Assembly (NCBI RefSeq): GCF_014196925.1
Contig: NZ_JACIEN010000001.1
Location: 558,001-622,000 of the forward strand
Length of the DNA: 64,000 nucleotides
Direction of reading: 5' to 3'
Source of the DNA: Chelatococcus caeni
GTDB taxonomy: Bacteria; Pseudomonadota; Alphaproteobacteria; Rhizobiales; Beijerinckiaceae
The position numbers and the translations under genes were made by a program. This document shows positions 19,191 through 61,613 of this stretch, in pieces. How positions within the stretch are numbered: position 1 is the first letter of the stretch; every line of letters begins with the position of its first letter. The notes below the pieces were generated by a model, which made no database searches, had not been told where the DNA came from, and was given only the letters and a program-made list of their open reading frames with translations.

Positions 19191-19313
19191 CCGGCAGCGC
19201 GGCGCCTCCTGTCGAAGCGCCGCGCTTCGCCACCGCACGCCTGTCACCGGCAGGGTGCACAAACGGTCGGGCGGGCCTATATCAGGGGTTCGTTCTGTCT
19301 GGAATCATTCTGA

Positions 19314-21239
19314 ATGGCTGACCAAGCAACCGGCCTCGCCGCGCCGGAAACGGCCGCGCAGGGGCCTGCCGCAGCGCCGCACCGGCCGGGCATCGCAGGC
19401 ACCATGGTGCGGCTGTGGCCCTACCTGTGGCCGCACGACCGGGCGGACCTGCGCCTGCGCATCTACATCGCCTTCGCCCTGCTCCTGGCGGCGAAGATCG
19501 TCACCGTCCTGATGCCCTACAGTTTCAAATGGGCGACGGACGCGCTGACGGGCGAGCTCGGGGGTGCCGGCGCGCAGGCGACGGCGCCGCTATGGGCCGG
19601 GGCGGTGGCGCTCACGGTGCTCTACGGCCTCACCCGCATGCTCATGGCCGGGCTCACGCAATTGCGCGACGGCGTCTTCGCCTCGGTGGCCATGAATGCC
19701 GTGCGGCGCCTGGCGCTCAAGACCTTCGAGCACATGCACCAGCTGTCCCTGCGCTTCCATCTGGAGCGCAAGACGGGCGGGCTGACGCGCGTCCTCGAAC
19801 GCGGTCGCACCGGCATCGAGGAGCTGGTGCGCCTTGCGGTGCTGCAACTCGTGCCGACGATCATCGAGTTCGTGCTGGTGATGGCCATCCTGTGGCTGCA
19901 GTTCGACTGGCGCTACGCCGCCGTCGTCTTCGCCATGGTCGTCGTCTATCTCGCCTACACCTACCAGGCGACGGAGTGGCGCATCGGCATCCGCCGGCGC
20001 ATGAACGAATCCGACACCGACGCCAATACCAAGGCCGTCGATTCGCTGCTCAACTACGAGACGGTGAAATATTTCGGCGCCGAGGAGCGCGAGATCCGCC
20101 GCTACGACCGCTCCGTCGAGCGCTACGAGCGCGCCAGCGTCGAGACCTACACCTCGCTCGCCGTGCTCAACGCCGGCCAGGCCATCATCTTCACGCTCGG
20201 CCTGACGGCGGCCATGGTGATGGCGGTGTTCGACGTGCGGGCCGGCCGCACCACGGTCGGCGGCTTCGTCATGGTCAACGCCATGCTGATCCAGCTCTAC
20301 ATCCCGCTCAACTTCATGGGCATGCTGTATCGCGAGATCAAGCAGGCGCTCATCGACATCGACGACATGTTCTCGATCCTCGCCCGCCACCCGGAGGTGA
20401 GCGACAGGCCGGGCGCCGCGCCGCTCGTCGTCGGCGAAGGCACGGTGCGCTTCGAGGACGTGCGCTTCTCCTACGTGCCGGAGCGCGAGATCCTCAAGGG
20501 CATCTCCTTCGAGGTGCCGGCCGGGCGCACGGTCGCCATCGTCGGCCCCTCGGGCGCCGGCAAGTCGACCATCTCGCGCCTGCTGTTCCGCTTCTACGAG
20601 CCGAGCGGCGGCCGCATCCTCATCGACGGGCAGGATATCGCCGCCGTGCAGCAGGCGAGCCTGCGCGAGAAGATCGGCATGGTCCCGCAGGACACGGTGC
20701 TGTTCAACGACACCATCGGCTACAACATCCGCTACGGCCGCTGGGAAGCGGCGGAGGAGGACGTGGCCGAGGCTGCGCGCCTCGCGCAGATCGACACCTT
20801 CATCCGCTCCCTGCCGGAGGGCTACGACACGCCGGTGGGCGAGCGCGGCCTCAAGCTCTCGGGCGGCGAGAAGCAGCGGGTGGCGATCGCCCGCACCATC
20901 CTCAAGGGCCCGCCCATCCTGGTGCTCGACGAGGCGACCTCGGCCCTCGACAGCTTCACCGAGAAGGAGATCCAGGACGCGCTGGACCGGGTGTCGCGCG
21001 GCCGAACGACGCTGGTCATCGCCCACCGCCTCTCCACCGTCGTCGGCGCCGACGAGATCATCGTGCTCGACAAGGGCGTGATCGCCGAGCGCGGCACGCA
21101 CGACGCGCTTCTGGCGGCCGGCGGCCTCTACGCCGCCATGTGGAACCGCCAGCGCGAGGCCGACGAGGCCCGCGAGAAGTTGAAGCGCGCCGCCGAGGAG
21201 GAGGGCGAAAGCCTGCGCATGAGCCTGACGGCGGGTTGA
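19314..21239 (+). CDS. ABC transporter, Atm1/HMT1-type fused permease-ATPase
   Basis: A 641-residue half-transporter working as a homodimer. Six membrane segments lie in about residues 35-330, with a KTGGLTRVLERG cytoplasmic loop typical of the Atm1 class. The nucleotide domain has Walker A GPSGAGKST near 411, signature LSGGEKQR near 515 and Walker B ILVLDEATSALD near 535. Atm1-type proteins export glutathione-linked compounds, supporting cytosolic Fe-S balance and heavy-metal tolerance. It starts 111 bases upstream of the psd reading frame region and could be co-transcribed with it. Confidence 0.93.
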   Translation: MADQATGLAAPETAAQGPAAAPHRPGIAGTMVRLWPYLWPHDRADLRLRIYIAFALLLAAKIVTVLMPYSFKWATDALTGELGGAGAQATAPLWAGAVALTVLYGLTRMLMAGLTQLRDGVFASVAMNAVRRLALKTFEHMHQLSLRFHLERKTGGLTRVLERGRTGIEELVRLAVLQLVPTIIEFVLVMAILWLQFDWRYAAVVFAMVVVYLAYTYQATEWRIGIRRRMNESDTDANTKAVDSLLNYETVKYFGAEEREIRRYDRSVERYERASVETYTSLAVLNAGQAIIFTLGLTAAMVMAVFDVRAGRTTVGGFVMVNAMLIQLYIPLNFMGMLYREIKQALIDIDDMFSILARHPEVSDRPGAAPLVVGEGTVRFEDVRFSYVPEREILKGISFEVPAGRTVAIVGPSGAGKSTISRLLFRFYEPSGGRILIDGQDIAAVQQASLREKIGMVPQDTVLFNDTIGYNIRYGRWEAAEEDVAEAARLAQIDTFIRSLPEGYDTPVGERGLKLSGGEKQRVAIARTILKGPPILVLDEATSALDSFTEKEIQDALDRVSRGRTTLVIAHRLSTVVGADEIIVLDKGVIAERGTHDALLAAGGLYAAMWNRQREADEAREKLKRAAEEEGESLRMSLTAG

Positions 21240-50152: not shown

Positions 50153-52231
50153 TCAGAGCTGCTTCTTCTCCCGCTCGCGCAGGTAGTCCTCGCTCGTGCG
50201 CGGCGCCGGGCGGGCGGGGGCGTCGTGCGGGTCGAAGCTCTCGTTGACCACGGCCTCGACGCGGCAGTCCTCGCACATCTTGATGACGGCGATGCGCCGG
50301 GCATGCTCGCCCGAGAACATCCAGTGCCGGCCCTCGAGCCGCGAGACGATCCGCTCGATGGTGGAGCGGGTGCCGAAGGGCTTGCCGCAGGCGATGCAGT
50401 GGAAGGGCTCCTCCTCCTTCTTCGTCACCGGCGGGGCGGCCCAGGCGGCGAAGTCGATGCGCGGCTCGAGCGTGATGACCTTCTCCGGGCAGGTGGCGGC
50501 GCACAGCCCGCACTGCACGCAGCGGTCCTCGGCAAAGGTCAGCATCGGCTTGTCGGGATTATCGCCGAGCGCGCCCGTCGGGCAGGCGGCGACGCAGGCA
50601 TGGCACAGCGTGCAGCCCTCCGCGTCGACGTGGGCGGTGCCGAAGGGGGCGCGCTCGGGCAGGGGCAGGACGTCGACGGCAAGCGGCGCGACATTGCGCA
50701 GTTCCTTGAGCGCCATGACGGTGAGTTCGCGCCCCTGGCCGAGCGGCAGGAACTTCGCCGTCTGCCGCTCCGGCACGCCCGCCACCGGCACACCGGCGAG
50801 CGCCGCCGCGAGCTGGTCGGGGTCGTCCGTCTCGATCGTCGCCACGCTGCCTTCGCCGAAGCCGAGCGGCGCCGCAACGGCGTCCATATAGGCGAGGTTG
50901 CGCATGAGGCCGCCGGTGTCGTGCTTCGGCCTGGCCCGCATCAGAACGCGGATCGCCGCCGCGCCATAGGCGAGGGCCGCGGCGAAGGCATCGAGCCCGA
51001 GCTGCGTCGCCTCGTTGACCGCGACCGGCAGGACATGGGCCGGCAGGCCCTCGCCATGGCGGGCGAGAGCATCGATCAGCTCCGCGCCATGGTCTTCGTC
51101 GTGGAAGAGCACCACCGCCCGCTCGCCGCCAGCCTCGGCATAGGTGTGGAGCAGGGCGCGCAGCCGCGCCATCAGGGTGTCGCTCGCCGGCAGGGCATAG
51201 GTTGCCGCGCCGGTCGGGCAGACGGCGGCGCAGGCGCCGCAGCCGGCGCAGATCTCGGCCGAGATGGCGACGTGGTCGCCGTCCGGCGTGATCGCGCCGG
51301 TGGGGCACAGGTCGAGGCAGCGCGTGCAGCCGGTCTTCTTCGAGCGCGAATGGGCGCACAGCGCCGCATCGAAGGTGACGTAGCGCGGCTTGTCGAATTC
51401 GCCGACGAGCTGCGATGCCTCGAAGGCAAGGCGCGCCACGGCCGCCGGGTCGCCGGGATCCGCACGCAGGTAGCCGGCGCGCAGTTCCCCCGCCGGGAAG
51501 AGCGGCACGCCGCCGCTGACGTCGAGAACGATGTCGCAGCGCGACAGGGCGCCGTCACGCGGCGCGCCGAAGGCGAGCCTGGCGCGCGACGACGGGGCCG
51601 GATGCGCGAAGTCGTTGACCGTGAGCGAAAAGGCGCCGAGCCAGCCGGTGGCCTGGGCGATGGTGCCCTTGAGCACGGGAAAGTCGCTCCGGCGCGGCGC
51701 CGGCACGTCGACCGGGCGCGTCAGCAGCACGGTGACGTCGAGCACGTCCTTGAGTCGCTCGGCGAGGGCGATCGCCGTCTCGTCGCGGCCGTAGACGAGG
51801 GCGACGCCCTCGCTCTTCAGCGGCACGAGCGGCGCCTCGGACGGCGCGATCCGCGCCGCGGCGATCAGCGCCGCCATCTTGGGGCCTGCCGCCTCCGCCT
51901 CGGCCGACCAGCCGGCGTTCTCGCGCAGGTTGACGAAAGTGAGATTCGCCTCCGGGGCGTTCTCGCCCGCCACCTCCTCGAAAAGCGGCGCCTCCTGGGT
52001 GCAGCCGACGAGGATGTCCGCCTCCGGGCCGAGCGCGGCCTTGAGCCGCTCCAGCTCGCGCCGGCACAGCTGATCCGCGAGGCGCACGTCGTGGCTCGGG
52101 CAGGCCCGCGTCAGCAGCTTCTCGTCGAGCGGCATCGTGCCCTCGCAGGAGCAGACGAAGGCGACGGGCTTTGCCTCGACAATCGGGCCGTTGGCGATGG
52201 GGCGCTTGCCGCGACCGGGGCCTTCAGCCAT
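50153..52231 (-). CDS. 4Fe-4S ferredoxin-type protein of formate dehydrogenase region
   Basis: A 692-residue cytoplasmic iron-sulfur protein. Two ferredoxin pairs are visible: CTRCLDLCP (about 300) with CAGCGACAAVCP (about 329), and CTLCHACVAACP (about 540) with CVQCGLCAATCP (about 570). A C-terminal metal-site candidate is CIACG (about 612) with CEDC (about 651). The N-terminal third resembles a heterodisulfide-reductase-like thiol region (FVCSCEGTMPLDE). GGAGGTG supports ATG 52231. It is divergent from the DUF4444 operon; similar genes accompany FDH clusters in Hyphomicrobiales. Its electron-transfer role is inferred. Confidence 0.85.
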   Translation of the reverse strand: MAEGPGRGKRPIANGPIVEAKPVAFVCSCEGTMPLDEKLLTRACPSHDVRLADQLCRRELERLKAALGPEADILVGCTQEAPLFEEVAGENAPEANLTFVNLRENAGWSAEAEAAGPKMAALIAAARIAPSEAPLVPLKSEGVALVYGRDETAIALAERLKDVLDVTVLLTRPVDVPAPRRSDFPVLKGTIAQATGWLGAFSLTVNDFAHPAPSSRARLAFGAPRDGALSRCDIVLDVSGGVPLFPAGELRAGYLRADPGDPAAVARLAFEASQLVGEFDKPRYVTFDAALCAHSRSKKTGCTRCLDLCPTGAITPDGDHVAISAEICAGCGACAAVCPTGAATYALPASDTLMARLRALLHTYAEAGGERAVVLFHDEDHGAELIDALARHGEGLPAHVLPVAVNEATQLGLDAFAAALAYGAAAIRVLMRARPKHDTGGLMRNLAYMDAVAAPLGFGEGSVATIETDDPDQLAAALAGVPVAGVPERQTAKFLPLGQGRELTVMALKELRNVAPLAVDVLPLPERAPFGTAHVDAEGCTLCHACVAACPTGALGDNPDKPMLTFAEDRCVQCGLCAATCPEKVITLEPRIDFAAWAAPPVTKKEEEPFHCIACGKPFGTRSTIERIVSRLEGRHWMFSGEHARRIAVIKMCEDCRVEAVVNESFDPHDAPARPAPRTSEDYLREREKKQL

Positions 52232-52301
52232 TGCGTTCACCTCCGCGATATCGATACCGACAGCGCTTGCATTCGCGCCATTTCGCGTCAGCTTATATCG
52301 A

Positions 52302-52318
52302 ATTGGATGAATTCCAAT
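52302..52318. promoter_or_regulatory. 17-bp palindrome, FDH-region operator candidate 1
   Basis: ATTGGA-N5-TCCAAT has perfect 6-base arms. It lies in the divergent intergenic space between the 4Fe-4S gene and the DUF4444 operon. A near-identical site with the same spacing (one base changed) is at 55930-55946, before the HTH-TorD/FDH operon. Such AT-rich symmetric sequence stands out in this GC-rich DNA. Confidence 0.55.
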
Positions 52319-53082
52319 CGAATGGCGAAGGGGAGGAGGCCATTCCGGTCAAGATCACGTCAATCGGCCGGCGCGAGCTCGTGCTGCCGCCCCCGTTCAC
52401 GCTCGTCACCCTGCGCGAGGCGGGGGATGCCTTTGCCCACGCCCGGGCGATCGCGGGCGAGGCGGGGGCGGGCACGCTCGTCTGGGCGCGCCGGTTCGAT
52501 CTCGTCGACTGCGCCGTGGTGCTCGAGCCGGCCGAGCCGCTCGCCCTCGCGCGCCTTGCCTTCTATCCGGCCATGAACGCGCTCGCCGATGCCGTCGCGG
52601 CCCATTGCGCGCCGGAGCATCCGCTGACCTTCGACTGGCCGGGCGGCATCCGCCTCGACGGCGTCCTCGTCGGCGACGGGCATCTCGCCTGGCCGGAGGA
52701 CGCGCGCGATGCGGCGGTGCCGGACTGGCTCGTCTTCGGCGCGCGCCTACGCATCGCGACGCTCGACGGGCCCGAAGCGGCCGGCGGGGAACTCGGCATC
52801 GATGCGGTCGGCGGGCTCGAGGGGGATGCCGAAAGCCTCGTCGAGAGCTTCGCGCGCCATCTCATGGCGAACCTGCACGGCTTCTCGGAGGACCGCGGCG
52901 CTTCTCAGGTTTCACATTATGTTGAGCGTCTGGCGCCAAGCGATTCCGGCGACTCGTCTTTTGCCATCGACGTGAACGGCGATCTGCTCGTCACGACGGG
53001 CCGTGGCCGCCGCCGGCGTCTCTTCGTCGAGGCGCTCGCGCGCCATGGTGAGCGCGACGCCGAGGGGAGGCTTCCTGCATGA
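52303..53082 (+). CDS. Biotin/lipoate A/B protein ligase-family protein (DUF4444)
   Basis: A protein of up to 259 residues, with the lipoate/biotin ligase-like fold (LVWARRFDLVDCAVVLEPAEPLALARLAFY in two stretches) and a DUF4444 C-terminal part. Such genes belong to FDH accessory clusters, but no substrate is known. No ATG is available. TTG 52303 overlaps an operator-like palindrome; a strong GGGAGGAGG at 52331-52339 points to a rare ATT at 52342; GTG 52381 would start at LPPPFTLV. Its stop overlaps the next start (ATGA). Confidence 0.8.
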   Translation: MDEFQSNGEGEEAIPVKITSIGRRELVLPPPFTLVTLREAGDAFAHARAIAGEAGAGTLVWARRFDLVDCAVVLEPAEPLALARLAFYPAMNALADAVAAHCAPEHPLTFDWPGGIRLDGVLVGDGHLAWPEDARDAAVPDWLVFGARLRIATLDGPEAAGGELGIDAVGGLEGDAESLVESFARHLMANLHGFSEDRGASQVSHYVERLAPSDSGDSSFAIDVNGDLLVTTGRGRRRRLFVEALARHGERDAEGRLPA

Positions 53083-53609
53083 AGCTGCCGCGCACTATCC
53101 GGCTCGACGCCTCGGACAGCTTCGTCTTCGCCCATGCCGCCGCGCCGGGCGAATGGGCGGTGACCGGTGCCTTCCTCTTCGTCGATGCCGACGTCGCCTC
53201 GCTGCCGACCAAGGAACGCGTCGCCTTCCGCTCCGGCTTCCTCGGCATCGACAGTTTCGGCTTCTCCACCCTCGCCGTGGTCAGCGAGGCGGGCGACGAG
53301 GTCGAGGCGGCCACGGAGCTCCTGGCGCGGCGCTTCGTCGAGCGGCTCGGCGCCCCCGACGTCGCCACCGCCCTGCCGGCGGCGCGGGAGGAAATCGCCT
53401 TCGCCGCCTCGCTCTGCGACCATCCCGTCGGCACGCTCCTCGCCCTGCAGCGCGTGATGGAGAACGGCGAGATCCGCGAGCGCTACCGCACGCTCACCCC
53501 GCGTGGCGACCGGCCGCGCGACGGCTTCCGCGCCTTCGATTTCTTCGAGACCGACGACGAGCCCGCCGAGGAGGTCGATCTCCTCGCCCTGATGAAGGAC
53601 AAGCCATGA
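53079..53609 (+). CDS. DUF6505 family protein
   Basis: A 176-residue cytoplasmic protein starting KLPRTIRLDASDSFVFAHAA, with a mid FLGIDSFGFSTLAVVSEA and a C-terminal FDFFETDDEP. I recognise it as the DUF6505 gene found between DUF4444 and DUF6352 in FDH clusters. No catalytic motif is visible. It overlaps both neighbours by 4 bases, so expression is tightly coupled. The function is unknown. Confidence 0.8.
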   Translation: MKLPRTIRLDASDSFVFAHAAAPGEWAVTGAFLFVDADVASLPTKERVAFRSGFLGIDSFGFSTLAVVSEAGDEVEAATELLARRFVERLGAPDVATALPAAREEIAFAASLCDHPVGTLLALQRVMENGEIRERYRTLTPRGDRPRDGFRAFDFFETDDEPAEEVDLLALMKDKP

Positions 53610-54628
53610 CCGATGCCGCCAACCGCGACTTCTGGCTGTCGAGCGGCCATGTGCTGCTCGACCGGCGCGAGGACGGCGGCCTCGTCGCGACCGACGCCTT
53701 CCTGAAGGCCTATCTCGCCCGGCCGGAGCTCATGCCGCCCGAGGAGGCCTGCCCCGCCGAGCGGGCCCTCCACGCCCGGCTGATGGACGATCCCTTCGCC
53801 GCGGTCTCACCGGTGACGCTGGCGCAGCTTGCCGATGCCGATGCGCGCGACAACTGGCGGGCGTTTCTCTCCTTCCGCGACCGGCTTCTGGCCGCGCCGA
53901 CGCTGCAGGCGGCCTATGTGCGCATGATCAGGGACGGCGTCGGCGGCATTCCGCCGCTCTTCCTCAACCAGCTCGTCCATGTGCTGATGCGCGCCGCGCT
54001 CGACGGCTGCGAGGATGCCGAGGTCCTGCGCGCGGGGGAGATCTTCTTCCGCCCGCAGAAGGTGACCGTGCACGAGGGCCATCTCCTCCTCGCCGATGCC
54101 GAGACCATCGCGATGCACGAGGAGAACCGGCAGGCTTCGCCGCTGCTCGCCATGCTCGGCGGTCCGGCGGTGAGCGAGCTCGACGTGCTGCAGCCGGGCG
54201 AGACGGGCTACCAGGAGCGCAGCGATGCCTTCGACATGGTGCTTGACCTGGGTGGCGAGGCGGGTGGCCGCGCGGCCATCGCCCGCTGCGTCGAGGCCTT
54301 CCTGCGCGAGACGCTGGGGCACGCGGTGGCGGTCGAGCCTGTGCCACGCATCGAGGATAGCGACTGGCGCTGGTTCATCGGGCTCGATGCCGAGGCCACC
54401 GCCATCGGTAACGCCCTGTGGCGGGACGAGGAGGTGGACGGGGAGGCTTCTTCGCGCGTCCTCGCCCTCTTCCGCCTGACGCTCGACCCGTCCGTGCCGG
54501 TGCGGCCGGAGGTGCGCGGCCATCCCGTCTATCTCATCATGGCGATGGACCGGGGCAATCTGCTACGCTTCAAGCCGCAGAACCTCATTGCCGGCCTGCC
54601 GCTCGCGGCGGACCAGCCGGTGCATTGA
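53606..54628 (+). CDS. DUF6352 family protein
   Basis: A 340-residue cytoplasmic protein, mostly helical and acidic. It begins RDFWLSSGHVLLDRREDGGL and contains GGIPPLFLNQLVHVLMRAAL near residue 113 and FFRPQKVTVHEGHLLLADAE near 150. Family members sit in the same operon position in other Hyphomicrobiales. No cofactor motif is seen. A chaperone or assembly role for the FDH is inferred from context only. Confidence 0.8.
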   Translation: MTDAANRDFWLSSGHVLLDRREDGGLVATDAFLKAYLARPELMPPEEACPAERALHARLMDDPFAAVSPVTLAQLADADARDNWRAFLSFRDRLLAAPTLQAAYVRMIRDGVGGIPPLFLNQLVHVLMRAALDGCEDAEVLRAGEIFFRPQKVTVHEGHLLLADAETIAMHEENRQASPLLAMLGGPAVSELDVLQPGETGYQERSDAFDMVLDLGGEAGGRAAIARCVEAFLRETLGHAVAVEPVPRIEDSDWRWFIGLDAEATAIGNALWRDEEVDGEASSRVLALFRLTLDPSVPVRPEVRGHPVYLIMAMDRGNLLRFKPQNLIAGLPLAADQPVH

Positions 54629-54640
54629 GGAGGCCGGATC

Positions 54641-55150
54641 ATGGCACATGAGAGGTTCAACGTCGGCGTCGTCGTCGAACGCCGCCCGTTGAAGAGCCGC
54701 TGGGTGGATCATGCCTGGCTGCCGGTCGCCGTCATCGCCGGCGTGCCGGAGGCGGCCCCGTGGACCTTGCTCGGCGAGGAGGCCGGCGTGCAGCGCTTCT
54801 ACGCCGGCGCCTTCGACGTCGACCTCTACCGGGCCGAGACGGCCGGCTACCGCGACAATCTCGAAAGCGGGGCGCCGAAACTGTGGATCGCCGCCCATGC
54901 CACGGGAGTCACGCCGCCGCTCGACATTCTCGTCGTCACGGCCGATCCCAACGAGGGCGCGGCCTATACGGAAGCGGGCGACAATATCGTCGAGGCGGTG
55001 CCGATGCCGGACGAGGTCGCCGGCGTCGTCGCCCGCTTCGTCGCCGAGCACCACGTGGAGCGCGCCTTCATCAAGCGTCGCCGCGACCGGGCCGATCCCG
55101 ACGCCCTGGCGCTGCGGCCGGGGCGGGACAAGGAGGGAGGCGAGCCGTGA
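54641..55150 (+). CDS. DUF3305 domain protein
   Basis: A 169-residue cytoplasmic protein. FNVGVVVERRPLKSRWVDHAW at the start and AFDVDLYRAETAGYRDNLES in the middle are DUF3305 hallmarks. The family is found almost only beside formate dehydrogenases together with DUF3306. The biochemical role is unknown. GAGGAGG lies before its ATG, and its end overlaps DUF3306. Confidence 0.88.
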   Translation: MAHERFNVGVVVERRPLKSRWVDHAWLPVAVIAGVPEAAPWTLLGEEAGVQRFYAGAFDVDLYRAETAGYRDNLESGAPKLWIAAHATGVTPPLDILVVTADPNEGAAYTEAGDNIVEAVPMPDEVAGVVARFVAEHHVERAFIKRRRDRADPDALALRPGRDKEGGEP

Positions 55151-55830
55151 GCGGCGACGAAGGCTTCCTCACCCGCTGGTCGCGCCGCAAGGAGGCCGCG
55201 CGGCGGAGCGAAGACGCGCCGGTGGCCGTGAATGTGCCCGCCGAGGCGCCGGAAGAGATTGCCGCACCGGTGGCCGAGGCAGAGGCGCAGGTCGCGGCTT
55301 CCCCTGAAGACGATGCGCCTGTCCCGCTCGAGGAACTGCCGCCGATCGAGAGCATCGGCCCGGAGACGGACCTGACGCCGTGGCTGAAGCGCAACGTGCC
55401 GCCGGCCTGGCGCCAGGCGGCGCTGCGCCGCCTGTGGGTGAGCGACCCCGGCATCCGCGATTTCGTCGGTCTCGCCGACTACGACTGGGACTGGAACACT
55501 CCCGGCGGCATGCCGGGCTACGGGCCGCTCGAGATCGGCGAGGCCGTGCGCAAGCGCCTCCTCGCCGCCGTCGAGGGGGCTCCGCCGCCCGCCGGCGAAG
55601 AGAGGGTGCAGCAGGACCGCGCCTCGGCCGATCCTCCGGCCGACGAGCAGGCGCCCGGCCCGTCGCCGGAGCCGGAAGAGGCGCCGGATGCCGTCCGGTT
55701 GCCCGCCGAACCTTCGGCGGCACGGCCAGCAGTTGCGCAGGCGAGCGAAGATCACGCAGATTTGAATAGAGATTTAGGGAACTCGCCACCCTCTCCCCGC
55801 CGCCGTTCGGGCTCGGCGACGCCGGTCTGA
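55147..55830 (+). CDS. DUF3306 domain protein
   Basis: A 227-residue cytoplasmic protein. It opens with the family start FLTRWSRRKEAARR. After an acidic linker comes the conserved core LKRNVPPAWRQAALRRLWVSDP, with FVGLADYDWDWNTPGGMPGYG following. The C-terminal 80 residues are Pro/Ala/Glu-rich and low-complexity. It has a GTG start with AAGGAGGGAGG upstream. It is the partner of DUF3305 and the last gene of the DUF4444 operon; its role in FDH maturation is inferred. Confidence 0.88.
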   Translation: MSGDEGFLTRWSRRKEAARRSEDAPVAVNVPAEAPEEIAAPVAEAEAQVAASPEDDAPVPLEELPPIESIGPETDLTPWLKRNVPPAWRQAALRRLWVSDPGIRDFVGLADYDWDWNTPGGMPGYGPLEIGEAVRKRLLAAVEGAPPPAGEERVQQDRASADPPADEQAPGPSPEPEEAPDAVRLPAEPSAARPAVAQASEDHADLNRDLGNSPPSPRRRSGSATPV

Positions 55831-55929
55831 GCGAGGCCGCACAAGGGTTTCACGGGCTCGGGGGCGGATGGCGGCAGGGGCTGCCGCATGCCTGCCGGTA
55901 CAGCCATAGCGGGTGCAGTGCAGCATTTC

Positions 55930-55946
55930 ATTGGAATAGTTGCAAT
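55930..55946. promoter_or_regulatory. 17-bp palindrome, FDH-region operator candidate 2
   Basis: ATTGGA-N5-TGCAAT has the same arms and spacing as the site at 52302, with one base different. Outer CATTG/CAATG is also symmetric. It lies 64 bases before the start of the HTH-TorD gene, in the 179-base gap before the fdh3 operon. Confidence 0.55.
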
Positions 55947-56009
55947 GTGAAAAAGGGGTGATAGGCTCGCCCTATTGCCGTTTCAGACACGGGAGGCAAC
56001 GGGTCGGGA

Positions 56010-56792
56010 ATGCGCGAAGTGGGGCTCAGGCAGGCCATTGAAGCAGCGGGCGGCGTGCGTGCGCTCGCCCGGCAACTCGGGGTGTCGCAGCCGACGATTT
56101 CCGGCTGGCGCCGCGTGCCGGCCGACCGTGTCCTGACCGTCGAATCGCTCACCGGCGTCGACCGTGCCGTGCTCCGTCCGGACATCTATCCGCCGCAGGA
56201 TGCCGCCGCCGCAGCCGATGTCGACCCCATCGATCTTGCCCGTGCCGAGGAATACGCACTGCTCGCGGTGCTGCTCTGGCGTGCGCCGGGGCAGGACCTG
56301 CTCGACCGGCTGGCGCAGCTGCGGGGCGACGCGAGCGAGATCGGCATGGCGCATCTGGCGCTCGCCGATGCCGCCGTCGGCACGGACGCCGAAGCCGTGA
56401 GCCGCGAGTTCTTCGACCTCTTCATCGGCCTCGGCCGCGGCGAGCTCCTGCCCTATGCCTCCTATTACCTCACCGGCTTCCTGCACGAGCGTCCGCTCGC
56501 CGTGCTGCGCGGCGACCTCGCGCGGCTCGGCATCGAGCGTGCCGAGCGGGTGGCCGAGCCGGAGGACCACATCGCCATCCTCTGCGAGACGATGGCCGGG
56601 CTCATCCGCTGCGACTTCGGGGTCGCCGGCCTCGGCGAGCGGGAGTTCTTCGCCCGCCACGTGGAGCCGTGGGCGGGGCGATTCTTTGCGGATCTCGAGA
56701 CCTCGCGCGCCGGCCGGTTCTACCGGGCCGTCGGCACGCTCGGGCGCGTCATGATGGAGATCGAGGCGGAAGCCTTCGCGCTGCCCGCCTGA
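56010..56792 (+). CDS. HTH-TorD fusion: Cro/YdaS-type DNA-binding domain plus molybdoenzyme chaperone
   Basis: A 260-residue protein with two domains. Residues 1-45 form a Cro/YdaS-like helix-turn-helix (VRALARQLGVSQPTISGWRR). Residues 70-255 are a TorD/DmsD-type redox enzyme chaperone, all-helical, with FFDLFIGLGRGELLPYASYY, EDHIAILCETMAGLI, and FFARHVEPWAGRFFADLE. TorD proteins guard the Tat leader and help cofactor insertion, here for Fdh3A. The DNA-binding half suggests that it also regulates. It is the first gene of the fdh3 operon. Confidence 0.88.
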   Translation: MREVGLRQAIEAAGGVRALARQLGVSQPTISGWRRVPADRVLTVESLTGVDRAVLRPDIYPPQDAAAAADVDPIDLARAEEYALLAVLLWRAPGQDLLDRLAQLRGDASEIGMAHLALADAAVGTDAEAVSREFFDLFIGLGRGELLPYASYYLTGFLHERPLAVLRGDLARLGIERAERVAEPEDHIAILCETMAGLIRCDFGVAGLGEREFFARHVEPWAGRFFADLETSRAGRFYRAVGTLGRVMMEIEAEAFALPA

Positions 56793-56818: not shown

Positions 56819-57016
56819 ATGCAGGACGAGAAGAAGAAAAAGGTCCTCGATCGACGCAGCTTCCTCGGCGCTGCCGGTGCGGGCGCCGCCATGACGGCGC
56901 TCGCACCGGTCGTCGCCGACAAGGCTGAAGCCATGGCCGAGCCTCCCGGCAACGACCAGACGCGCTATCGCGAGACCGAACACGTCCAGGACTTCTACCG
57001 GGTCAACCGGTACTGA
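56819..57016 (+). CDS. Formate dehydrogenase region Tat-target small protein
   Basis: A 65-residue protein with a clear Tat leader (DRRSFLGAAGAGAAMTALAP) and a short conserved tail that ends YRETEHVQDFYRVNRY. It matches the small Tat-target family (TIGR02811) encoded just before FDH large subunits. Its role is unknown; it may be a decoy or partner for the chaperone, or a periplasmic subunit. GAGGGGAGGAAG is a strong ribosome site. Confidence 0.92.
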   Translation: MQDEKKKKVLDRRSFLGAAGAGAAMTALAPVVADKAEAMAEPPGNDQTRYRETEHVQDFYRVNRY

Positions 57017-57029
57017 GGGGGAGGCCGCC

Positions 57030-59936
57030 ATGCTCATCAAGCGCAAGTCCACTGCGGCCGCGCAGGGACGGCTGCAGGCCGTCGCCGCCGGCTTCGGGGG
57101 CGCATCCCTGGTCGACCGGCGCGCCTTCCTGAAGCGTGCCGGCTTCACGGCCGGTGCGCTCGCCGCGGTCGGGACGATCCAGGTGGGAGCCGTGCGCCGC
57201 GCGGAAGCGGGGCCCACCGACTTCCAGCAGCCCATCGAGCGCAAGAAGAACATCTGCACCCACTGCTCCGTCGGCTGCACGGTGACCGCCGAGGTGCAGA
57301 ACGGCGTGTGGGTAGGCCAGGAGCCGTCGTGGTTCAGCCCGATCAACCGGGGCTCCCACTGCGCCAAGGGCGCGGCCATCCGCGAGCTGGTCCACGGCGA
57401 CCGGCGCCTGAAATATCCGATGAAGCTGGTGAACGGCGCCTGGCAGCGCATCTCCTGGGACGACGCCATCAACGAGATCGGCGACAAGCTCATGGAGATC
57501 CGCAACGCGTCGGGTCCTGAATCCGTCTACTGGCTCGGCTCGGCCAAGTATTCCAACGAAGGCGCCTATCTCCTGCGCAAGTTCGCCGCCTTCTGGGGCA
57601 CCAACTCGGTCGATCACCAGGCGCGTATCTGCCATTCCACCACGGTCGCGGGCGTCGCGAACACGTGGGGCTATGGCGCCATGACCAACAGCTACAACGA
57701 CATCCGCAACTCGAAGACCATCGTCTTCATGGGCTCCAACGCGGCCGAAGCCCACCCGGTGTCGCTGCAGCACATCCTCACCGGCAAGGAGATCAACCGC
57801 GCCAACGTCTTCGTCGTCGATCCGCGCTTCACCCGCACGGCGGCGCATTCGACGGAATACGTGCGCATCCGCTCCGGCACCGACATCGCCGTGATCTGGG
57901 GCATGCTGTGGCACATCTTCGAGAACGGCTGGGAGGACAAGCAGTTCATCGCTCAGCGCGTCTATGGCATGGATGAGATCCGCGCCGAGGTGCGGAAGTG
58001 GGATCCCGCCACCGTCGAGGACGTGACGGGCGTGCCCGGCGAGCAGCTGAAGCGCGTCGCCGAGACCTTCGCCAAGGAGCGGCCGTCCACCTTCATCTGG
58101 TGCATGGGCGGCACGCAGCACTCGGTGGGCACGGCCAACGTGCGCGCCTATTGCAACCTGCTGCTCGCCACCGGCAACGTCGGCGGCTTCGGCAACGGCG
58201 CCAACATCTTCCGCGGCCACTGCAACGTGCAGGGGGCGACCGACCTCGGCCTCGATATCACGTCCCTGCCGCTCTATTACGGCCTCACCGAGGGCGCCTG
58301 GAAGCACTGGTGCCGGGTGTGGGAGGTCGATTACGACTGGATGCTCTCGCGCTTCGAAGACAAGAAGATGATGGAGGCGCCCGGCATCCCCTCGACGCGG
58401 TGGTTCGACGCCGTGCTCCTGCCCAAGGACCAGGTGGACCAGCCGGACAATGTCCGCGCCATGATGGTCTTCGGCCACGGCGGCAACACCATCCCGCGCA
58501 TGCCGGAGATGGTGAAGGGCCTCGAGAAGCTCGACCTCCTCGTCGTCGGCGACCCGCATCCGACGACCTTCGCCGCGATCTCGCAGCGCAAGGACGGCAC
58601 CTACCTCCTGCCCATCTGCACGCAGCTCGAGACCTCGGGCTCGCGCACGGCCTCCAACCGCTCGCTCCAGTGGGGCGAGCAGATCGTCAAGCCGATCTTC
58701 GAATCGAAGGACGATTACGAGGTCATGTATCTCCTCGCGACGAAGCTCGGCTTCGCCAACGAGATGTTCAAGAACATCAAGGTCGAGAACAGCCGGCCGG
58801 AAGCGGAGGACATCCTGCGCGAGATCAACCGCGGCGGCTGGTCCACCGGCTATTGCGGCCAGTCGCCCGAGCGCCTCAAGGCGCATATGGCGAACCAGGA
58901 CAAGTTCGACATCGTGACCCTGCGCGCGGCCAAGGACGTGCCGGAGGTCGGCGGCGACTACTACGGCCTGCCGTGGCCGTGCTGGGGCACGCCGGAATTC
59001 CGGCATCCCGGCACGCACACGCTCTACAACACCAACATCCACGTGAAGGACGGCGGCGGCACCTTCCGCGCCCGTTTCGGCGTGGAGCGCGAGGGCGTGA
59101 CGCTGCTGTCGGAAGGCTCCTACTCGCAGGGCTCCGAGATCACGGACGGCTATCCCGAGTTCACCTACGGCGTCCTGAAGAAGCTCGGCTGGGATGCCGA
59201 CCTCACGGAGGCGGAACGCGCCACCATCGAAGGCATCGGCGGCAACAATCCCGACGCCGTCTCCTGGTCGATCGACCTGTCCGGCGGCATCCAGCGCGTG
59301 GCGCTGGAACACGGCTGCATCCCCTACGGCAACGGCAAGGCCCGCGCGGTGGCGTGGAACCTGCCCGACCCGGTGCCGGTGCACCGCGAGCCGATCTATT
59401 CGCCGCGCGCCGACCTCGTGGCGAAATACCCGACGCGGGAGGACTTCAAGAGCTTCCGCGTGCCCAACATCGGCTTCACCGTCCAGAAGGCGGCGGTCGA
59501 CAAGGGCATCGCGAGGGACTTCCCGATCATCCTGACATCCGGGCGCCTCGTCGAATACGAGGGCGGCGGCGAGGAGACGCGCTCCAACAAGTGGCTCGCC
59601 GAGCTGCAGCAGGACATGTTCGTCGAGATCAACCCGGCGGACGCGGCCGAGCGCGGCATCAGTGACGGCGGCTGGGTGTGGGTGACGGGGCCGGAGAACC
59701 AGTCCAAGGCCCGCGTCAAGGCGCTCGTGACGGAGCGTGTCGGCAAGGGCGTCGCCTTCATGCCCTTCCACTTCTCCGGCTGGTTCATGGGCGAGGACCA
59801 GCGCAAGAACTACCCGCCGGGCGCGGATCCCATCGTCCTCGGCGAAAGCGTCAACACCATCACCACCTACGGCTATGACCCGGTGACGGGCATGCACGAG
59901 GGCAAGGTGACGCTGTGCCAGATCAGGGCGGCCTGA
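57030..59936 (+). CDS. fdh3A: Formate dehydrogenase FDH3 alpha (catalytic) subunit
   Basis: A 968-residue periplasmic molybdo/tungsten bis-MGD enzyme oxidising formate to CO2. The Tat leader has DRRAFLKRAGF at about 30-40. The [4Fe-4S] site starts CTHCSVGC near residue 75. The Mo ligand is Cys201 in ARICHSTTV, so it is a cysteine and not a selenocysteine enzyme. MGD-binding domains follow, including MGSNAAEAHPVS and the C-terminal PFHFSGWF region. It is exported with its beta partner. Confidence 0.95.
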   Translation: MLIKRKSTAAAQGRLQAVAAGFGGASLVDRRAFLKRAGFTAGALAAVGTIQVGAVRRAEAGPTDFQQPIERKKNICTHCSVGCTVTAEVQNGVWVGQEPSWFSPINRGSHCAKGAAIRELVHGDRRLKYPMKLVNGAWQRISWDDAINEIGDKLMEIRNASGPESVYWLGSAKYSNEGAYLLRKFAAFWGTNSVDHQARICHSTTVAGVANTWGYGAMTNSYNDIRNSKTIVFMGSNAAEAHPVSLQHILTGKEINRANVFVVDPRFTRTAAHSTEYVRIRSGTDIAVIWGMLWHIFENGWEDKQFIAQRVYGMDEIRAEVRKWDPATVEDVTGVPGEQLKRVAETFAKERPSTFIWCMGGTQHSVGTANVRAYCNLLLATGNVGGFGNGANIFRGHCNVQGATDLGLDITSLPLYYGLTEGAWKHWCRVWEVDYDWMLSRFEDKKMMEAPGIPSTRWFDAVLLPKDQVDQPDNVRAMMVFGHGGNTIPRMPEMVKGLEKLDLLVVGDPHPTTFAAISQRKDGTYLLPICTQLETSGSRTASNRSLQWGEQIVKPIFESKDDYEVMYLLATKLGFANEMFKNIKVENSRPEAEDILREINRGGWSTGYCGQSPERLKAHMANQDKFDIVTLRAAKDVPEVGGDYYGLPWPCWGTPEFRHPGTHTLYNTNIHVKDGGGTFRARFGVEREGVTLLSEGSYSQGSEITDGYPEFTYGVLKKLGWDADLTEAERATIEGIGGNNPDAVSWSIDLSGGIQRVALEHGCIPYGNGKARAVAWNLPDPVPVHREPIYSPRADLVAKYPTREDFKSFRVPNIGFTVQKAAVDKGIARDFPIILTSGRLVEYEGGGEETRSNKWLAELQQDMFVEINPADAAERGISDGGWVWVTGPENQSKARVKALVTERVGKGVAFMPFHFSGWFMGEDQRKNYPPGADPIVLGESVNTITTYGYDPVTGMHEGKVTLCQIRAA

Positions 59937-59947
59937 GGGAGGATGAC

Positions 59948-60544
59948 ATGGCCCGTTTGAAATTCCTCTGCGACGCCGACCGTTGCATCGAGTGCAATGC
60001 CTGCGTCACCGCCTGCAAGAACGAGAACGAGGTGCCCTGGGGCATCAACCGCCGGCGCGTCGTCACCATCAACGACGGCAAGCCGGGCGAGAGGTCGATC
60101 TCCATGGCCTGCATGCATTGCACGGACGCGCCCTGCAAGGCCGTCTGTCCGGTCGACTGCTTCTACAACACCGCCGACGGCATCGTGCTGCATTCGAAGG
60201 ACCTGTGCATCGGCTGCGGCTACTGCTTCTACGCCTGCCCGTTCGGGGCGCCGCAATATCCGCGCGTCGGCAATTTCGGCTCGCGCGGCAAGATGGACAA
60301 GTGCACCTACTGCGCCGGCGGTCCCGAGCCGGACCTGACCGCCGCCGAGTACCAGAAATACGGCGCGAACCGCATCGCCGAAGGCAAGCTGCCGCTCTGC
60401 GCCGAGATGTGCTCGACGAAGTCGCTGCTCGCCGGCGACGGCGAGATCATCGCCGCCATCTACAAGGAACGCGTGCTCAAGCGCGGCTACGGCTCCGGTG
60501 CGTGGGGCTGGAAGACGGCCTATCGCGAGACGATCGACGTTTGA
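59948..60544 (+). CDS. fdh3B: Formate dehydrogenase FDH3 beta (iron-sulfur) subunit
   Basis: A 198-residue ferredoxin-type electron-transfer subunit. Four cluster motifs are visible: CIECNACVTACKNE, CMHCTDAPCKAVCP, CIGCGYCFYACPFG, and CTYCAGG with later CAEMC. It has no Tat leader or membrane anchor of its own, so it is probably carried out with Fdh3A. It transfers electrons from the alpha subunit to the cytochrome b subunit. GAGGGAGG precedes ATG 59948, 11 bases after fdh3A. Confidence 0.95.
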   Translation: MARLKFLCDADRCIECNACVTACKNENEVPWGINRRRVVTINDGKPGERSISMACMHCTDAPCKAVCPVDCFYNTADGIVLHSKDLCIGCGYCFYACPFGAPQYPRVGNFGSRGKMDKCTYCAGGPEPDLTAAEYQKYGANRIAEGKLPLCAEMCSTKSLLAGDGEIIAAIYKERVLKRGYGSGAWGWKTAYRETIDV

Positions 60545-60581: not shown

Positions 60582-61613
60582 ATGACCCGCACAGGACACG
60601 ATCGGCGCTGGTCGGCCCGCGGCATCGCCGCCGCACTGACGATGCTGCTGGCGCTGCTCCTTGCGCTGCCCGCGGCGACGGGCTCCGCTTTCGCCCAGGT
60701 CAATCCGACGACCGAGGCGGTGAGGGAAGAGCAGCTCATGCAGGCACTCGACCGGGTCACCGGCCGCGTGTCGATCCCCGACCGGAAGGCGGCGACGCTG
60801 ATCCAGGTCGAAGGGCAGGAATGGCGGGCCTATCACGAGCGCACGCTGGCCTGGATCGGCGGCATCGCCATCCTCGGCATGCTCGCGGTGCTCGCGGTCT
60901 TCTTTCTGGTGCGCGGGCGCATCCGCACGGAGGCCGGGCCGTCGGGCCGCACCATCGTGCGCTTCAGGTGGTTCGAGCGCTTCGTGCACTGGCTGACGGC
61001 GAGCTGCTTCGTCATCCTCGCGCTGTCCGGCCTCAACGTCGCCTTCGGCAAGTCGCTGCTGCTGCCGCTCATCGGGCCGGAGGCCTTCTCCACCTTCTCG
61101 ATGGCCGCGAAATACGCCCACAACTATCTCAGCTTCCCCTTCACGCTGGGGCTGGTGCTGATGTTCTTCATCTGGGCGCTGCGCAACATCCCGAGCCGCG
61201 TCGACGTGACGTGGTTCGCGCAGGGCGGCGGCATCGTCGGCAAGGCGCATCCGCCGGCCGGCAAGTTCAACGCCGGCCAGAAGATGCTGTTCTGGCTCGT
61301 CATCCTCGTCGGCGCCGCCATCGCGGTCAGCGGCTATATCCTGCTGTTCCCGTTCTACGGCACGACGATCGCCGGCATGCAGACGGCGCAGGTGGTGCAC
61401 GGCCTTCTGGGCGTGCTCCTCACCGCCGTGATCCTCGGCCACATCTATATCGGCACGCTCGGCATGGAGGGCGCCTTCGACGCCATGGGCAACGGCGAGG
61501 TCGACCTCAACTGGGCGCGCCAGCACCACAGCCTCTGGGTCGCCGAGGAGGAGCGCAAGGCGACGGTCGAAGGCAAGCGCAGCGTGCCGCCGACGGCCGT
61601 GCCGGCGGAGTAG
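60582..61613 (+). CDS. fdh3C: Formate dehydrogenase FDH3 gamma (cytochrome b556) subunit
   Basis: A 343-residue inner-membrane subunit. A signal-like N-terminus (ALTMLLALLLALPAATGSAFA) precedes a periplasmic stretch and four to five membrane helices from about 88 onward. His residues for heme b are visible in RFVHWLTASCF, YAHNYLSF, and VVHGLLGVLL with GHIYIG. It passes electrons from formate to the quinone pool. It is the last gene of the fdh3 operon, and a family B repeat follows. Confidence 0.93.
   Translation: MTRTGHDRRWSARGIAAALTMLLALLLALPAATGSAFAQVNPTTEAVREEQLMQALDRVTGRVSIPDRKAATLIQVEGQEWRAYHERTLAWIGGIAILGMLAVLAVFFLVRGRIRTEAGPSGRTIVRFRWFERFVHWLTASCFVILALSGLNVAFGKSLLLPLIGPEAFSTFSMAAKYAHNYLSFPFTLGLVLMFFIWALRNIPSRVDVTWFAQGGGIVGKAHPPAGKFNAGQKMLFWLVILVGAAIAVSGYILLFPFYGTTIAGMQTAQVVHGLLGVLLTAVILGHIYIGTLGMEGAFDAMGNGEVDLNWARQHHSLWVAEEERKATVEGKRSVPPTAVPAE

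Follow-up and report, generated by a model that had tools for sequence, protein, structure and literature searches.

A Cro-like domain joined to a TorD-type chaperone and its candidate operator in an alphaproteobacterial formate dehydrogenase locus

The locus and the HTH-TorD protein

The window analysed here, a stretch of 64,000 nucleotides of the Chelatococcus caeni genome (contig NZ_JACIEN010000001.1, positions 558,001 to 622,000), contains a formate dehydrogenase (FDH) operon whose first gene encodes a helix-turn-helix (HTH) domain joined to a TorD-type chaperone domain. The fusion protein is called HTH-TorD; the other genes of the locus include those for the FDH subunits, for a small protein of the twin-arginine (Tat) type, for a multi-[4Fe-4S] protein and for an accessory operon (Table 1). 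Comparison of sequences across related genomes suggests that HTH-TorD is a Cro-like autoregulator, probably a repressor, that acts via a 17-bp palindrome before its own gene (55960-55976) and is joined to an intact TorD chaperone domain; we consider this reading likely.

Table 1. Features of the formate dehydrogenase locus (positions in the window).
Feature	Position	Strand	Basis
Multi-[4Fe-4S] protein, divergent from accessory operon	50153..52240	-	Fer4 families
17-mer site 1 ATTGGATGAATTCCAAT, divergent 4Fe-4S/ligase promoter; probable Irr (ICE-like) box	52302..52318	.	4 mismatches to presumed ICE consensus
Accessory operon: PF16917 ligase-like gene, DUF6505, DUF6352, DUF3305, DUF3306	52342..55830	+	Family matches
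17-mer site 2 ATTGGAATAGTTGCAAT, HTH-TorD promoter; probable Irr (ICE-like) box	55930..55946	.	3 mismatches to presumed ICE consensus
Candidate HTH-TorD operator GATAGGctcgcCCTATT	55960..55976	.	Top-ranked gapped palindrome of fused upstreams
HTH-TorD fusion, 260 aa	56010..56792	+	PF15943 + PF02613
Small Tat protein (formate dehydrogenase region TAT target)	56819..57016	+	TIGR02811, 50.5 bits (cut-off 48.45)
FdhA catalytic subunit, twin-arginine leader	57030..59936	+	Best match TIGR01591, 443.5 bits, below family cut-off of 666.25
FDH3 beta subunit	59948..60544	+	NF038355, 338.4 bits (cut-off 240)
Probable gamma (cytochrome b type) subunit	60582..61613	+	Open reading frame and operon position only

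HTH-TorD consists of the HTH (residues 1-60), a variable linker (about 61-74) and the TorD domain (about 75-260). The joining of a Cro/YdaS-type domain to a TorD chaperone, as put forward in a preliminary description of the locus, was confirmed: PF15943 (YdaS type) matched residues 6-62 with 58.7 bits (cut-off 30) and PF02613 (TorD/NarJ type) matched residues 108-227 with 97.3 bits (cut-off 22.2). The protein is not TorD proper, scoring 48.2 bits against the cut-off of 132 for the equivalog family NF003442, and its HTH is not a free-standing small prophage YdaS toxin or regulator, being the N-terminal domain of a 260-residue protein within the fdh operon. A structure model was obtained from an alignment of 64 sequences (A2; the window protein and 63 of the 80 named loci described below), with a mean predicted local distance difference test score (pLDDT) of 89.7, a confident HTH and weak residues 61-70. 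Foldseek matched the model to DmsD, YcdY, NarJ and Cro of Xfaso 1. The HTH has the Cro fold (chains of 3bd1, Foldseek probability 1.00, root-mean-square deviation 1.2-1.8 over 60-65 columns). Columns of the HTH had a mean conservation of 0.76 and those of the TorD domain 0.69, with 0.37 in the linker, which indicates that both domains are under constraint. E185-D186-H187 of the TorD domain was invariant in the 64 sequences. DNA-contact residues, the lack of which would have spoken against a regulator according to the preliminary description, are present, Gln27 of the HTH being kept in 114 of the 115 distinct fused proteins.

In a survey of 60 genomes (own genome included), 26 had a match to the protein: 13 fused, 11 to the chaperone part only and 2 to the HTH part only. 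Some kind of match was found in 170 of 397 genomes in an order-wide sample, and clusters and upstream regions were drawn from these 170. A scan with the fused alignment yielded 80 named loci, including ones from Bradyrhizobium, Bosea, Afipia, Nitrobacter, Phreatobacter, Mesorhizobium, Salinarimonas and Elioraea. Among the matches listed for 398 genomes of the phylum, none outside the class covers both domains. In one genome (G203) a fused TorD of this family occurs alongside an unfused one (L038, L097).

No description of an HTH-TorD regulator was found in an open-access library from which most subscription papers are absent. In sequence and fold the HTH resembles Cro of prophage Xfaso 1 (PDB 3bd1) and of phage P22 (1rzs), which have palindromic operators of 16-17 bp, as here; unlike these, HTH-TorD is not part of a phage switch, is joined to a chaperone and has a single operator per cluster. 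With the redox enzyme maturation proteins TorD, DmsD and YcdY it shares the fold and domain, E185-D186-H187 and an operon with a Tat-exported molybdoenzyme. The solved relatives, however, have no DNA-binding domain, and none is mentioned in the accessible sections of a paper on this family (PMC4464133). The DUF3305/DUF3306-linked fdhGHI operons with a DmsD-type chaperone in that paper have the same gene neighbourhood as found here; the HTH fusion and operator, present here, are not mentioned for them in those sections.

A palindrome before HTH-TorD genes

Every gapped palindrome with a half-site of 4-6 bases and a spacer of 0-14 was enumerated, with no prior choice, in the upstream regions of a first set of 47 fused and 22 unfused genes. 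Identical upstreams were merged in this set, and two loci with matches only from residues 33 and 37 (L030 and L091) were placed in neither group. Genes were counted as unfused if they had no match to the HTH part, with upstream counted from the matched part, so that N-terminal extensions may count as upstream. ATAG-N7-CTAT ranked first, occurring in 43 of the 47 fused upstreams and in none of the 22 unfused ones; the remaining 4 fused upstreams had the symmetric variant ATAA-N7-TTAT. The best palindrome that was not part of ATAG-N7-CTAT reached 13 of 47, and Markov-shuffled upstreams contained ATAG-N7-CTAT in a mean of 0.03 and a maximum of 1 of 47. All 13 fused genes of the 60-genome survey have a palindrome upstream (ATAG form in 12, ATAA form in 1).

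The named set provided 68 new distinct fused loci with enough upstream sequence, L163 (too little upstream), 10 loci of the first set and the duplicate L168 not being counted. Here, the ATAG form was found in 57, the ATAA form in 8 and neither exactly in 3, which brings the figures for all 115 distinct fused proteins to 100, 12 and 3, respectively. Neither form was present before any of 41 unfused TorD genes (22 of the first set and 19 outside the order). Outside the order, an exact site precedes each of L228-L231, the four fusions that share this HTH type, and L230 has a hybrid copy as well; no ATAG-N7-CTAT was found before three fusions with another recognition helix (L232-L234).

The full operator is 17 bp long, YATAG-N7-CTATR; in 81 non-redundant regions (62% identity filter) no column outside these 17 bp exceeded 0.35 bits. 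In the window, the 15-bp core ATAG-N7-CTAT spans 55961-55975, 34 bp 5' of the HTH-TorD ATG, and the palindrome is intact in 4 of 4 genus members. Overall, the presence of the operator depends, at the level of sequence, on this type of HTH, and HTH-TorD very probably binds the candidate operator of the window.

Two operator-like sites were seen upstream of HTH-TorD in L152, L159, L179, L228 and L230. A second kind of HTH-TorD fusion occurs in another alphaproteobacterial order (L254-L263), with the recognition helix KQANVWHW and without ATAG-N7-CTAT; of its 10 loci 9 were analysed, and 7 have ACAAA-N4-TTTGT near the start codon. This element is not claimed as the operator of the second HTH type, the loci being too few and too related.

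Residue 29, target range and promoter geometry

Residue 29 is the HTH position that best separates the operator classes, with Ser or Thr accompanying ATAG and Ala accompanying ATAA (column comparison with 96 of the 101 ATAG proteins). It agrees with the operator class in 111 of 112 fused proteins, and Ala29 is also found at the hybrid-site locus L149. In a tree built from the TorD domain only, with the duplicate L168 still included, operator and residue 29 each change four times. L177 (ATAA with Ala) adjoins an Afipia protein with ATAG and Ser on this tree, and L088 stands apart from both. In lambda Cro, Gln27 contacts A2 and Ala29 contacts the thymine methyl at position 5. We take this numbering to apply here, in which case operator position 2 is the invariant A and position 5 the variable G/A. 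According to the accessible part of PMC3317979, the inner operator positions of well-studied phage HTH repressors are determined solely by thymine methyls, which fits the pairing of Ala29 with A:T. A correlation between recognition helix and operator half-site in Cro proteins is credited to Hall, Lefevre and Cordes 2005 in the accessible parts of PMC4488713 and PMC4997575.

In principle, ATAG-N7-CTAT could be a promoter element or the site of another protein, since the right half of the palindrome can form a -10 in some genomes. The palindrome, however, is absent before the 41 unfused TorD genes and the three fusions with another helix, it tracks residue 29 of the HTH, and its position relative to promoters varies, which makes this explanation very unlikely.

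In 28 cluster loci, one ATAG-N7-CTAT each was found in 24 and one ATAA form each in 3, always before HTH-TorD; the remaining locus, L091 (matched only from residue 37), has neither form. The 4Fe-4S/ligase promoter had no ATAG-N7-CTAT in any of the 28. The proposal of the preliminary description that a chaperone-regulator acts on its own cluster is thereby retained in part: very probably, judging from the sequence comparisons, HTH-TorD acts on its own operon, with one target per cluster; control of the accessory operon as well is not supported. A larger regulon is not visible in 15 whole genomes, in which the count of ATAG-N7-CTAT was at or below that of a reversed-pattern control in 12 and slightly above it in 3. 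In G022 (single contig, 5.35 Mb) the sole genomic copy is that at the HTH-TorD promoter. The own genome has a second exact ATAGG-N5-CCTAT at G000:C3:279632-279646.

The best-scoring predicted promoters of the 81 regions had the -10 on the operator in 35 and the -35 on it in 18. Such overlap in most regions makes repression likelier than activation, as far as the promoter predictions go.

Several observations weigh against the proposed autoregulator. The three fused loci with neither exact form are L149 (hybrid site), L174 (one mismatch) and L191 (no site), and many of the genomes are related, so that the operator counts are not independent. The sole exception for residue 29, Ala29 with ATAG, lies in the window's own genus (L014 of G002). 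Independent switch pairs on the TorD-domain tree numbered 2 on starred branches and 4 on all branches, too few for the association of residue 29 to reach 0.05; a Fisher test of this association takes no account of relatedness and is not relied on. The linker is variable in length and sequence and has low model confidence, so that tight allostery gets no support. The window's own predicted promoter at HTH-TorD is weak, and in the regions without overlap the operator lay upstream of the -35 (17), the promoter was wholly upstream (10) or the layout was different (1).

Two other modes of action bear on these points. HTH-TorD might activate rather than repress its operon, as would be allowed by the 17 regions whose best predicted -35 lies downstream of the operator; since the -10 or -35 overlaps the operator in 53 of the 81 regions and the relatives of the HTH (Cro) are repressors, activation is unlikely. 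The variable linker would suit a plain autorepressor without sensing, in which HTH and chaperone are independent and the fusion merely fixes the chaperone level. This leaves the retention of the pairing across many genera unexplained, and we regard it as rather unlikely, albeit less so than activation.

The shared 17-mers and the proposed regulation

The preliminary description assigned another element to HTH-TorD, the 17-mer ATTGGA-N5-TSCAAT. Its two copies were found as described, with 0 mismatches and equal spacing before the accessory and HTH-TorD operons, and they are the only exact matches to ATTGSA-N5-TSCAAT in the genome of 5,433,240 bases (about 0.09 expected from base composition). 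All 4 genus members keep the 17-mer at the 4Fe-4S/ligase promoter; the copies of G001 and G003 are identical to that of the window, and the copy of G002 has 3 mismatches. The element at the HTH-TorD promoter matches fully in G001 and has 1 mismatch in G003. Uniqueness and conservation within the genus speak for binding of HTH-TorD to this element before both operons and regulation of both. Against it stands the distribution: with up to 1 mismatch, the 17-mer precedes 3 of the 13 fused genes of the 60-genome survey and lies no farther than 250 bp from HTH-TorD at 4 of 47 first-set loci (3 in the genus) and 2 of 79 named loci, despite the strongly conserved HTH. Conservation of the 17-mer as written therefore does not go along with that of the HTH-TorD gene, a point on which the preliminary description had made its proposal depend. 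Furthermore, the 17-mer has decayed at the HTH-TorD promoter of G002, where the ATAG palindrome stays intact, and elements resembling it precede unfused TorD genes and mbfA (see below). Binding of HTH-TorD to the 17-mers is thus extremely unlikely. In unfused genomes the strict 17-mer was present in 0 of 16 readable 4Fe-4S upstreams (L205 and L211 of 18 were excluded, as the match began inside the gene); most fused genomes also have no strict 17-mer, so that its absence there is not decisive.

The shared 17-mers are likely to be boxes (ICE) of the iron regulator Irr, which would control both operons of this iron-rich enzyme; this is compatible with the proposed role of HTH-TorD. Elements of the 17-mer type precede mbfA by 17-18 bp both in the own genome (L010; NF045676, 580.1 bits, cut-off 450) and in G001 (L108). 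In G014 such an element stands about 100 bp ahead of an mbfA-like gene (L114), and in G003 about 430 bp ahead of a bacterioferritin gene (L107; TIGR00754, 213.5 bits, cut-off 125.55). The neighbouring genes were read at 18 loci with near-matches to the 17-mer, the mbfA and bacterioferritin cases among them; one lies by a LysR gene (L116) and most were uninformative. Two Irr proteins are encoded in the own genome; L286 scores 197.8 and 197.5 bits and L287 scores 225 and 220 bits, with cut-offs of 150 and 170 (NF045678, NF045677). The window sites differ from the ICE consensus, which we presume to be TTTRGAAYNRTTCYAAA, at 4 (site 1) and 3 (site 2) of 17 positions. Sites with up to 3 mismatches to this consensus precede 37 of the 115 distinct fused genes, with 0.65 expected, and 3 of the 22 unfused genes of the first set, with 0.05 expected. 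The sites before unfused TorD genes indicate that these elements do not depend on the HTH. The mismatches of the window sites and the absence of a site at this threshold from the other 78 fused genes speak against the assignment to Irr. Compared with Irr/ICE iron control in Alphaproteobacteria, the palindrome type and the targets mbfA and bacterioferritin are alike, and the fdh accessory and HTH-TorD operons would differ as targets.

The best ICE-like site in the window, TCTGGAATCATTCTGAA (19298-19314; 2 mismatches to the presumed consensus), immediately precedes an ABC transporter gene (19314). In G014, TTTAGAATTATTCCAAT (L105; 1 mismatch) lies between two same-strand genes.

The first gene of the accessory operon, given as DUF4444 in the preliminary description, belongs to PF16917 (BPL_LplA_LipB_2) and is followed by the DUF genes of Table 1. 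The PF16917 gene has an apparent ATT start behind a good ribosome site; ATT is found at the same position in G001 and G003, and ATG in G002. A conserved AUU start codon is rare. The leader motif of FdhA, RRAFLKRAG, was read directly from the sequence.

For HTH-TorD, we propose that the HTH, presumably as a dimer, binds a single 17-bp palindrome before its own gene, the form of which would follow residue 29: YATAG-N7-CTATR, or ATAA-N7-TTAT where Ala29 is present. The bound protein would control the operon of the chaperone, the small Tat protein and the fdh subunits, most likely by repression. From the conserved signature of its TorD domain we infer that client occupancy changes DNA binding: an FDH precursor or its Tat leader may alter the affinity for the operator, most simply by derepression when client exceeds chaperone. 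Client sensing, with either sign, is a suggestion that we make with reserve. The shared 17-mers would form a second layer, probably iron control of both operons by Irr.

Little is understood of how cells adjust the supply of a complex metalloenzyme to what its assembly line can handle. Where a chaperone carries its own DNA-binding domain and has one defined operator, such feedback can be tested with a single protein, a single DNA site and a single leader peptide. Specificity can readily be tested on the natural pairs Ser/Thr29-ATAG and Ala29-ATAA, for which relatives with and without the fusion provide natural controls; the probable Irr sites tie the same enzyme to iron supply. Tentatively, a Tat/molybdoenzyme proofreading chaperone may here be the transcription factor of its client's operon, the FDH precursor deciding whether a Cro-like domain occupies its dedicated operator, and the pair may have been re-specified more than once through a single substitution (Ser/Thr29 to Ala) together with a single symmetric change of base. 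If so, formate dehydrogenase synthesis would be set by the state of its maturation queue, beneath a separate Irr iron gate.

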